Shown here piece by piece: positions 9,682 through 25,579 of a stretch of DNA of 64,000 nucleotides. The position numbers and the translations under genes were made by a program. How positions within the stretch are numbered: position 1 is the first letter of the stretch; each line of letters starts with the position of its first letter. The notes under the pieces were generated by a model. That model did not search any database. It had not been told where the DNA came from and saw nothing but the letters and a program-made list of their open reading frames with translations. The stretch covers positions 1-64,000 of the forward strand of contig JADFAL010000036.1 in assembly GCA_015665275.1 (NCBI GenBank), read 5' to 3'. The DNA comes from Flavobacteriales bacterium. GTDB taxonomy: Bacteria > Bacteroidota > Bacteroidia > Flavobacteriales_D > Crocinitomicaceae.

Positions 9682-10626
9682 TCAACCCTTAAAAAGTTTC
9701 TCTCTCACGTCTATTTCTAGTCCATTTAGCCCCTGCAGTCCGCCGGTATGAACAAAAACGATTCGCTCTCCATCGTATCTACCCTCAAGAATCTGTTCCC
9801 ATAAAGCAAACATCGCTTTCCCTGTATACACATGATCTAACCTGATCTGATGCTTTTCGTAAAAATCACTAATAAACTGAAGTAATTCATCCGTATACTT
9901 TGCATATCCTCCGAAATGAAAAGAGTCCAGTACATCTACTTTTGAAAGTAATTGATCCGTTGTTTCCGAATCAATCCCGGATTTCCCGAAACGCTGTCTC
10001 ATTTCAGCCAAACTATCAAATCCCTTGAGAACAGGAATAACAGAAATTTTTTGGGCGTCTTCTAATCCCATCAATACTCCGCAACTTGTAGTTGTCGTTC
10101 CTTGTGCTACCACGATTCGATCAAAAGACACCTGAATCTCCCGGTTCATTTCCTGACAACCGATCATTCCCCAATAATTCGCACCACCTTCTGGTACCAC
10201 CCACAAGTTTTGGTACTCCTGGAGCAATTCCTCATGATAAAAACGCTCGTTACGAAGGTGATATTCTTCGCGGGAAACAAAGTGTAACTGCATTCCTAAT
10301 TCATGACACCGACTCAATGTTTCGTTGCTTTGAGCATTCAATTCGTCTCCTCGAACAATTCCCACAGATCTCAATCTTGCTTTTTCGCACGCAGCGGCAG
10401 TGGCGACCAAATGATTCGAATACGCTCCACCGAAAGTCAATATTCCTTCGTTTTTGTATTGAACACCTTGTAATACGTTGAACTTTAGCTTCCGCCATTT
10501 GTTCCCTGAGACTTCAGGATCAATAAGATCATCGCGCTTCACGACTAACGAAACACCATGTGCTTCCAAAATAGGATCTGAGATTGTTTCTAAAACCGAA
10601 AGTGTGTTGTCGAAGAGGTCAACCAT
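9682..10626 (-). CDS. PLP-dependent ACC deaminase / D-cysteine desulfhydrase family enzyme
   Basis: 314 residues, fold type II PLP enzyme of the tryptophan-synthase-beta superfamily. The PLP lysine lies in SGNKWRKLKFN near residue 42-52, and the phosphate/cofactor region FGGAYSNHLVATAAAC follows, both typical of the ACC deaminase/D-cysteine desulfhydrase group; the C-terminal FVHTGGLQGLNG fits too. Members break 1-aminocyclopropane-1-carboxylate or D-cysteine (releasing ammonia, or sulfide plus ammonia), but the sequence alone does not decide the substrate; in Bacteroidota these are usually listed only as family members. It is divergent from the DUF5522 gene with 28 bases between the starts. 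Confidence 0.88.
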   Translation of the reverse strand: MVDLFDNTLSVLETISDPILEAHGVSLVVKRDDLIDPEVSGNKWRKLKFNVLQGVQYKNEGILTFGGAYSNHLVATAAACEKARLRSVGIVRGDELNAQSNETLSRCHELGMQLHFVSREEYHLRNERFYHEELLQEYQNLWVVPEGGANYWGMIGCQEMNREIQVSFDRIVVAQGTTTTSCGVLMGLEDAQKISVIPVLKGFDSLAEMRQRFGKSGIDSETTDQLLSKVDVLDSFHFGGYAKYTDELLQFISDFYEKHQIRLDHVYTGKAMFALWEQILEGRYDGERIVFVHTGGLQGLNGLEIDVREKLFKG

Positions 10627-10641
10627 GTGACAAATATCAGT

Positions 10642-10649
10642 TAATTTTG
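10642..10649 (+). promoter_or_regulatory. Candidate -7 element (TAnnTTTG) very close to a start codon
   Basis: TAATTTTG is a perfect -7 match and ends only 5 bases before the ATG at 10655. A transcript from it would have almost no leader. No good -33 element is visible, so its use is uncertain. Confidence 0.35.
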
Positions 10650-10654
10650 TGTTT

Positions 10655-10840
10655 ATGAGTGATGATATGAGCGGTTTTTCGAAGCGGTCGAAACTGGAGG
10701 AGGAAGATTACTATATGAGCCCGGATGGATTCATAGTTTTTACTGAGAAATATCACCGTAAACGCGGATATTGTTGTAAATCCGGTTGTATGCATTGCCC
10801 TTACGGTTATGACAAAAAAACGGGCGCGTTAAAGAAATAA
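10655..10840 (+). CDS. Small cysteine-rich DUF5522-type protein
   Basis: 61 residues from the ATG at 10655; an in-frame GTG six bases earlier is a poorer choice. The core pattern MSPDGFIVFTEKYHRKRGYC followed by CKSGCMHCPYGY gives four closely spaced cysteines (C-C-x3-C-x2-C) in a small basic protein, which matches what I know as DUF5522. Such a cluster could bind zinc or an iron-sulfur centre; that is inference. It converges on the acyltransferase gene with one base between the stops. Confidence 0.75.
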   Translation: MSDDMSGFSKRSKLEEEDYYMSPDGFIVFTEKYHRKRGYCCKSGCMHCPYGYDKKTGALKK

Positions 10841-11505: not shown

Positions 11506-12819
11506 GTGAAGAAATTCTCTAGATTGGGTCAGGCGCTTTCCATTATTGCACTATTCGGTGCCATGTGGTTGGTATATACCATTCTTGTATTCAGTTTCAA
11601 AGAAGCGAAGAATAATAACGCGGCGTACATACCCAATAATTCTTCCATTGTATATCAATTAGATGGACGATTATTAACTCAGGAGCTCTTGGCTTCATTG
11701 CTGATAAGCGAAGACAAAGAACTACAAGAGTTGGTACAAAATAAAATTCCAACAACCGGCGAAGGCACTCTGAAACCAGTAGGAATTACATTCGATTCAG
11801 ATGTATTTCTTTTTCGATTGGAAGAAAACGGGAATCGCTATTCAGGGATGCTTTTCAACCTTTGGGACAACCGGGTTTTTGACAAAAATATTCCAAAGTA
11901 TCTGGGCAAGAACAGTGCTAATGCATCCACAAATGATGTTGGACTCATACTAACGCAACTTGAAGGAAACCTTTCCAAAAAGGCATTACTGCAGCGAGCC
12001 AAACAAATGCTTTCCGCACCGACTGGATATTTTCGAAATGTGCGACCGCAAGATGGGAAATCTCTAATCTCTGTAAAGTATCGAAAGAACGGGGTTGCAA
12101 TCTCTGATGTGGGTGTTTCAGTTGAGGGCAATCAACTTTTATTTAAGGGCGCCTTCTTTACCAAAGAACTCAGTCATACAAATTTGGCTCAATACAAAGG
12201 TGGATTTCATATTCATTCGCAATGGCTTCCGAAAGAACTGAATACAGCGTTGCAAGATGCGCTAAAGACAGTAGGGATCGAGTTACCAGCTTTGAAGCAG
12301 TTTTCTTTGAATTACTTCGGGGCGACGATTGTAACAGAGCCAAGCATTGCCGGATTGCCCCATATGGCAGGCTCGTTTGAATTTGAAGAGCCCGTTGTAA
12401 CTGATTCAATTTTCAAAGACTTTACGTTGATTTCTAGCGACTCGGTAACGAATGAAAAAGTATACGATGTCCTTTCGATGCAGTACGCCATTAGACAGGT
12501 AAATGCTACAACTATTGACATTCGATCAGCTGAAGGTGTCGATTTGACAGAAGCCCCCTATTCTTCCACAGCGGAAATCTCTGGATCGCCCAAGCAATTG
12601 CTAAAATTGGACGGCGACAAGTTTATTCGTGGAATTTTGACCCTTACGAATGAATTCAAATCGCTTAGTTCATTTGTCAATGAAGTTGAGAAAATGGATA
12701 TCAAAATGACCCCAACTTCCAACAAAAACTATCGAATTGAGGGGAAAATTGAATTGAAGAACAATAAATGGCCGCTGAACGAAGTCTTAAAATTCTTAAT
12801 TCAAAGCAATTTGCTTTAG
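11506..12819 (+). CDS. Membrane-anchored protein of unknown function
   Basis: 437 residues from a GTG codon (the only start fitting MKKFSRLGQ). One N-terminal membrane segment at about residues 9-30 (ALSIIALFGAMWLVYTILVF) suggests an inner-membrane anchor with a long periplasmic body. The body has repeated beta-type stretches and no cysteines near the N-terminus, so it is not a lipoprotein. I recognise no family or catalytic motif. The last 24 bases overlap the 3' end of the convergent metal-receptor pseudogene. Confidence 0.8.
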   Translation: MKKFSRLGQALSIIALFGAMWLVYTILVFSFKEAKNNNAAYIPNNSSIVYQLDGRLLTQELLASLLISEDKELQELVQNKIPTTGEGTLKPVGITFDSDVFLFRLEENGNRYSGMLFNLWDNRVFDKNIPKYLGKNSANASTNDVGLILTQLEGNLSKKALLQRAKQMLSAPTGYFRNVRPQDGKSLISVKYRKNGVAISDVGVSVEGNQLLFKGAFFTKELSHTNLAQYKGGFHIHSQWLPKELNTALQDALKTVGIELPALKQFSLNYFGATIVTEPSIAGLPHMAGSFEFEEPVVTDSIFKDFTLISSDSVTNEKVYDVLSMQYAIRQVNATTIDIRSAEGVDLTEAPYSSTAEISGSPKQLLKLDGDKFIRGILTLTNEFKSLSSFVNEVEKMDIKMTPTSNKNYRIEGKIELKNNKWPLNEVLKFLIQSNLL

Positions 12820-13573
12820 CAGTTCCTTGAAGTATTTGGGCGCAAGTGTTAATCGTGATCCGTACCAAGAGAACATCTCTCCATCAACCAAAACAACCTT
12901 CGCATCTGGATACCTTTCTTGATACGCTTGAACGTGCTTCTGTTTGAACGGAAATGGCTCTGAACTCAAGAAAACAAGGTCTGGTGATTTATTTCCTTTG
13001 TTAATTTCTGGATATCGCTCCTCGTTCACGAAGTTTCGAAGTCCGCATTTCTCCAGCATAGCATCTATGAATGTATTCGAACCAGCGCAATAACTGGGAT
13101 CATGCCACGGACAACTGTTCCTTAACGTTCGCTGCAACCCATTTCTCTAAATCATCAAATTCCTCCTGAATTTCTGAAATCAGTTTTTCTGCCGGCTCCG
13201 AAGTTCCAGTGAGTTCCCCTACCTTTTGAATCATTTTTAGGGAGTCCTCTAGATTGAAAATATCGCTCATCCAAACCGGATACTCTTTTTCGAGCATCTC
13301 AATATCCCCTCTTTTGTTCTCTTCTTTATTGCCGATGATTAAGTCTGGAGCTAGTTTGGCAACTTTTTCCAAAATCACATCCTTCGTGCCACCAATGCGG
13401 TGCTTGCCGCGATACCATTCATCTGGGTACAGGCAGAATTTAGTAATTCCAACCACTCGATCCCCTAACCCAAGCGAATGCAATAATTCGGTTTGCGAAG
13501 GCACCAATGAAATAATTCGTTCTGGCTGACTATCAAGCAGAACTTCGCGATTCATCTGATCTTTATAGGTCAT
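12796..13573 (-). pseudogene. Frameshifted helical-backbone metal receptor (BtuF-like binding protein)
   Basis: Two overlapping minus-strand frames encode one protein. The first (13573-13100, 157 residues) carries the typical start of cobalamin/siderophore-binding proteins: PERIISLVPSQTELLHSLGL, VVGITKFCLYP, IGGTKDV, APDLIIGNKEEN. It stops at 13100-13102. The second frame (to 12796) continues with WHDPSYCAGSNTFIDAMLEKCG, RYPEI, PDLVFLSSEPFPF and VDGEMFSWYGSR, the normal C-terminal half. The joint lies near 13100, where a few residues seem missing before WHDP. There is no signal peptide, as in the soluble receptors of this phylum. It begins one base after the cystathionine beta-synthase stop. 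This may be a true mutation or a sequencing error. Confidence 0.82.
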
Positions 13574-18704: not shown

Positions 18705-19778
18705 ATGAAAATCACCGTAGTTCTGGCGTCATTAGCACTTTTCTCTAGTTCTGTTTTTGGACAAAACTTGCCTGTTTCTCAATTGCCTGAAACAAAGAAA
18801 GCCGTCATTGAGGAATTCACGGCATTTCGCTGTTGAAACTGTCCATTGGGACATCAAATGACGAACACAATTGGTGATAATCTTGGTGAAGAAAATGTAC
18901 TGATAATCGCCTATCATATTGGAGGCCTGGCCACTCCTCAATCCGCTGGAGATCCCGATTTTCGTACCCCAGATGGAGATCAAATGCGCAATCATTTCAA
19001 TGTTGCCGGAACTCCATCAGGTCCAGTAAATCGATCAAGTTTTGGAACTTCTAACTTTATTGTCAACGCAAACAATTGGTCTTCTAATTGCACTTCGGAA
19101 GTAGCGAATACTGCGAATGCGAATGTTGCTCTGGATGTAGCGATTGATCACAACACGCGAGAAGTTACGATCAATACAGAAGTATTTTACACGACCAATT
19201 CCGCGAATACGCACTATCTAACTGTTGGGTATTTGGAAGAAGGAATCATCGCATCACAAATTTCGTACAATTCAACGTGGAACTCCGATTACTTCTATCC
19301 GAACGGCGATTATTATCATCGTCATGTTTTTCGCGGATTTATCAATAGTGCGGAAGGAGATGTGATAGACGCCAATGCAACAGCGATTATTTCAAACGAT
19401 TACACATTCACAGTTCCGACAGATATTAACGGCCAGCCGGTAAATATCTATTCTCTCGAATTCTTTGCAATTGTTCATGAAGGACTAAATGATTCCGCTG
19501 ATTCCGAAATAATCAATGCAGCAAAATCAACTGACTCGTTTGTAAATATTACTGAATTCGAAAAGCGAGAATTAATCGTTGCTCCAAATCCAAACAACGG
19601 ATCGTTTGTCATTAATGGGCTTGAGGATTCCGATGTTGTCATGATTAATGATTTGAGTGGAAGAACTGTTGATTTTATAAGAGAGGGAAATCGCGTAGAG
19701 GTAGCTACAAGTGGATTTTATCTTTTGAATGTTGCTGGAGATAAAGGTAGCGGTAATCTAGCTTTCACCGCAAAATAG
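18705..19778 (+). pseudogene. Omp28-like exported protein interrupted by an in-frame TGA within CxxC
   Basis: One frame of 358 codons runs from the ATG at 18705 to the stop at 19778, broken only by TGA at 18834-18836 (codon 44). Upstream are a signal peptide (LASLALFSSSVFGQ) and the conserved lead-in KKAVIEEFTAFRC. Downstream the frame continues NCPLGHQMT, so the reading is C-stop-N-C-P, where family members have a sense codon between the cysteines. The body (residues ~60-280) matches the Omp28-related fold (YHRHVFRGFI), and the C-terminus has a T9SS-type tail (VAPNPNNGSFVING). An ATG at 18846 could only give a protein without signal peptide or first cysteine. One base change (for example from GGA) would explain the stop; other readings are discussed in the findings. 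Confidence 0.75.
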
Positions 19779-25154: not shown

Positions 25155-25216
25155 ATGAACGTTTTTTTTCGGGAATCGAAATCAAAGTAATACCTTCTAA
25201 CTTCAACCTTTTACTT

Positions 25217-25579
25217 TCAACTCCCCTCGCTACTTTTCTTCCGTTTCTTACTAGCCTTGGCCTCCGGATTAAAATCCAAACAGCGCTGAATCCAGAATTC
25301 TAAATCATCTTCGCGGTCGACACCTTCCGGAGCTACGAAAAGATAGCCAATCATAGGACGTTTCGTAAAATCCATCGGACGTGCCCCTTCCCTTTCCATC
25401 AATATTGAATACTGCTCCGTTCCGACCCGAGCCATGAAATCTCCCTTCACAATTCCAAAGCACATTTTTTCATCTACCATATAGCACAATCCGCCCATCA
25501 TTTTTCGCGCCTCGTGCAGAATATTTTTTTCGCTCAAAATGCGATCAATCCGTTCCTGTAGGTATTCGTCGTATGCCAT
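25217..25579 (-). CDS. TfoX/Sxy N-terminal domain protein
   Basis: 120 residues. The TfoX-N fold is recognisable from ARKMMGGLCYMVDEKMCFGIVKGDFMARVG, RPMDFTKRPM and the C-terminal FWIQRCLDFNPEA, with a basic lysine tail (ASKKRKKSS). Only the N-terminal domain is present, as is usual for the short form in Bacteroidota, so a competence-regulator role should not be assumed. Divergent from the ABC transporter genes. The 62-base gap 25155-25216 has a short GAAAGT/ACTTTC-type stretch described in the findings. Confidence 0.88.
   Translation of the reverse strand: MAYDEYLQERIDRILSEKNILHEARKMMGGLCYMVDEKMCFGIVKGDFMARVGTEQYSILMEREGARPMDFTKRPMIGYLFVAPEGVDREDDLEFWIQRCLDFNPEAKASKKRKKSSEGS

Follow-up and report, generated by a model that had tools for sequence, protein, structure and literature searches.

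An in-frame TGA within the C-x-x-C motif of an Omp28-family gene is probably a nonsense codon or a base error

Does a TGA codon lying between the two cysteines of a C-x-x-C motif specify selenocysteine, is it read through by other means, or does it simply interrupt the gene? The question is raised by an Omp28-like frame in the window, the 64,000-nucleotide stretch of DNA analysed here, which comes from a Fluviicola-like environmental bacterium with a draft genome of 3.64 Mb (115 contigs, 96% complete). The locus contains the following elements:

18705-19778, plus strand: Omp28-like frame, from the ATG at 18705 to the TAG at 19776-19778, 357 residues when read through
18705-18833, plus strand: 5' part of the frame, 43 codons, with an apparent signal peptide (by eye) and the first Cys of C-x-x-C
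18834-18836, plus strand: codon 44, an in-frame TGA that takes up the first x of C-x-x-C and aligns with sense codons in all 32 distinct relatives compared
18837-19778, plus strand: remainder of the frame, with the second Cys, the Omp28 domain, a sub-threshold match to a secretion-system tail, and the TAG stop
18840-18853, plus strand: 5-bp hairpin of TGTCC (18840-18844), an ATTG loop and GGACA (18849-18853), largely dictated by the codons for C-P-L-G-H, with no sign of function

The sequence-only reading had described TGT-TGA-AAC-TGT with an open frame on either side in an Omp28-like exported protein, and the letters are confirmed (TGT 18831-18833, TGA 18834-18836, AAC 18837-18839, TGT 18840-18842). 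The family assignment holds as well: residues 92-243 of the frame read through the TGA match Pfam Omp28 (PF11551) at 9.2e-20 and 71.6 bits, above the curated cut-off of 34.9, and a genome search gave 73 bits. Of the two intact ends that had been reported, the signal peptide is apparent by eye, but the secretion-system C-terminal sorting tail matches at 17.2 bits, below the cut-off of 27. Downstream of the TGA, the frame is intact over 313 codons. This open frame is not due to chance, because it is homologous along its whole length to an intact ortholog (L007/L018; 69% identity over residues 1-355), which forms one continuous frame without a stop. L018 is the match in G020, which belongs to the genus of the source genome; it aligns identically to L007, and the two are presumed to be one record and were counted once. 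In the named collection, the closest relative of the gene is that of Fluviicola sp. XM-24bin1. Computed gene pairing places the same two flanking genes beside the window gene and the ortholog; judged by eye, these are presumably a sodium/calcium-antiporter-like gene and uvrB.

The alignment of Omp28 homologs at codon 44, which had been proposed as a check, drew on a search of 60 genomes (the source genome included) that gave matches in 54. Internal stops among these matches were seen in the window gene (TGA) and in a short match in G049 (TAG), which covers the C-terminal tail region (residues 285-348). Codon 44 was compared in 30 fetched loci among the matches listed, two closest-relative loci and five Omp28 loci of the source genome. 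Of these 37 loci, 36 aligned across the codon (L049 did not), reducing to 32 distinct relatives, as two are the window gene itself and the pairs L007/L018 and L051/L052, the latter sharing one alignment, each count once; apart from the source genome itself, the genomes compared are of other species. L051 and L052 are two Omp28-family matches that adjoin on the same strand in the source genome (G000:C32:33877-35401).

The window gene and its aligned relatives have in common E-x-[FWYL]-T followed by C-x-x-C, and both motif cysteines are present in all 32 distinct relatives; unlike them, the window gene has a stop at codon 44. Where it has TGA, the ortholog has a Gly codon, and every one of the 32 has a sense codon (Thr in 14, Gly in 11, Val in three, Gln in two, Pro and Ala in one each). 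With six residues occurring, the position is variable, without sign of Cys or selenocysteine. The selenocysteine site of a selenoprotein is usually occupied by Cys in its relatives, and neither Cys nor TGA was found at codon 44 in any of the 32 distinct relatives examined, which argues against selenocysteine.

Insertion of selenocysteine at the TGA would create a C-U-x-C motif, a reading suggested by the location of the codon within a thiol motif and by the small hairpin downstream. However, the search for selA, selB, selC and selD that had been proposed found none above cut-off. Profile searches of the source genome gave no match to selA, eight to selB (best 184.5 bits against a cut-off of 242.25) and two to selD (best 55 against 125), and five to tRNA-Sec, the best reaching 43 bits against 47 with 150 of 287 candidates scored. 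This best tRNA-Sec match is a tRNA-Ser with anticodon TGA, which the locus scan named an ordinary tRNA. In the 14 control genomes, the models passed their cut-offs in one (selA), two (selB), two (selD) and five (tRNA-Sec) cases. Across the genus, selA exceeded its cut-off in none of 34 genomes, the source genome included, with one weak partial match in G010 (18.9 bits). None of selA, selB, selD and tRNA-Sec was thus recovered at cut-off from a genome that is 96% complete in 115 contigs, in which a missing gene could sit in an assembly gap.

The hairpin also weighs against selenocysteine, as it follows from coding. It exists as first described, but the peptide C-P-L-G-H fixes four of its five pairs and third codon positions set the fifth; when codons were drawn at random in proportion to their frequency in nine window genes, the five pairs all formed in Watson-Crick fashion in 38% of draws, and in 47% when G-U pairs were accepted too. 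The hairpin is therefore largely explained by coding. It recurs in the centroid structure of all three window stretches folded, yet their folding energies are not clearly better than those of shuffled sequences (z of +0.30 for 67 nt, -0.84 for 41 nt and -0.95 for 101 nt), while the corresponding stretch of the ortholog, which lacks the TGA, gives z of -1.52. As regards a SECIS stem-loop, this codon-dictated hairpin, with these three z values, was the only candidate seen by folding and codon draws.

Comparison with known selenoproteins points the same way. The UxxC and CxxU selenoproteins of the Global Ocean Sampling survey resemble the window gene in having an in-frame TGA near a thiol motif, but the four-residue motifs given in the available part of that report (UxxC, CxxU, TxxU and similar) place U at an outer position rather than at x (PMC2398784). 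The window gene differs further: it keeps both Cys, the relatives examined show no Cys at codon 44, it has no supported SECIS element, and it belongs to a genome where no sel machinery was found. The same portion of the report states that its authors could not rule out sequencing errors as the source of the in-frame TGA in selenoproteins known from a single sequence, and that a known family and strong SECIS elements argued for its own such cases; neither support holds for the window gene (PMC2398784). In the accessible part of PMC5029168, Omp28 is absent from the main text, and a table names one Bacteroidetes bacterium. A literature search for Omp28 and selenocysteine together, to the extent that it was available, gave one paper, a Helicobacter pylori comparison. 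On the strength of the sel gene searches, codon 44 in the relatives and the nature of the hairpin, selenocysteine was rejected and is regarded as extremely improbable.

A different possibility is that a near-cognate tRNA reads through the TGA at some rate, so that some full-length protein is made as well as a short exported peptide. What speaks for this is the intact downstream frame, in which substitutions fall mostly at third positions. Sorted by codon position (1, 2, 3), the differences from the ortholog number 14, 5 and 25 before the TGA and 76, 42 and 186 after it (the sum of three pieces, with the stop codon left out); these counts replaced dN/dS, as the synonymous distance was saturated and not computable in six of nine gene pairs, the Omp28 pair included. 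Since the differences lie mostly at third positions, the frame appears to have been under selection until recently and maintained through most of the divergence, a pattern that fits readthrough no less than a base error or a stop of recent origin. The undamaged frame after the TGA does count against a nonsense codon or error, as readthrough would give the same; however, a recent stop accounts for it equally well. Against readthrough stands the absence of any conserved in-frame stop at codon 44, sense in all 32 distinct relatives. TGA is moreover a usual stop in the window, as the sequence-only reading had held: of 48 window genes that match the relative, listed by hand, 21 reach TAA as their next stop, 15 TAG and 11 TGA, and one reaches no stop. 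For nine of the 11 TGA genes the stop falls no more than 15 bases from where the ortholog match ends; the remaining two stops, at 42 and 783 bases past that point, are less sure. The gene for the release factor, prfB, is present (486.5 bits against a cut-off of 370). Reassignment of TGA to a sense codon was accordingly rejected. No TCA anticodon occurs among the 29 tRNAs found, and a suppressor tRNA was likewise rejected within this incomplete set, for which 150 of 228 first-look candidates were scored and which lacks some isotypes, Ala among them. Readthrough is thus highly unlikely, and its specific form as UGA readthrough tolerated in the lineage, with little full-length Omp28-like protein beside the short exported peptide, is slightly less likely still. 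It is also barely credible that the locus comprises two separate genes, one for a short peptide and one for a protein started internally at TTG 18846. A mechanical ORF of 310 codons does begin at that TTG, but its product would contain neither the signal peptide nor either cysteine of the motif, and the ortholog is a single continuous frame.

Disruptions were also counted elsewhere in the window among genes matching the fetched stretches of G020, with G020 proteins placed by tblastn. One other gene is broken relative to G020: it lies on the minus strand at about 12796-13573, has a relative that matches Peripla_BP_2, and is divided between two frames, with a net 14-base deletion against the intact G020 gene. 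A deletion of 14 bases is not a typical base-call error and says little about single-base errors. Ten further stop-bearing rows were dismissed on visual inspection as ORFs running antisense to genes; eight lie inside such a gene and two (10523-10837 and 25191-25394) only partly.

The locus is therefore best explained, with a probability of about 0.94, as an ordinary gene for an Omp28-family exported protein interrupted by one nonsense codon, whether a mutation or a base error. This reading is favoured because relatives have sense codons and no selenocysteine machinery was found; the sequence-only reading had likewise put a nonsense change or a sequencing error first, with selenocysteine and readthrough below, and that order stands. 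A recent nonsense mutation in the sequenced strain or population is the probable origin, and a wrong draft-genome consensus at the TGA is a tentative second one, the division between the two being presumptive. The single nonsense codon stands where the closest ortholog has Gly. If the stop is real, translation would be terminated by RF2 after 43 residues, and the truncated product would consist of the signal peptide and one cysteine without the Omp28 domain, so that the gene product would be lost; both the loss of function and the recent age of the stop are presumed. Nonsense-interrupted genes and base errors in draft assemblies are well known, and the locus resembles them in its single in-frame stop, the intact frame after it and the intact ortholog with the same neighbours, with no difference seen. 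The finding matters little beyond annotation. If readthrough were true, recoding would take place at this TGA in a lineage in which the searches made here detected no selenocysteine machinery. The case also serves as a warning that, where an in-frame TGA falls in a thiol motif, a selenoprotein should not be called before sel genes have been sought and the codon compared with that of relatives.
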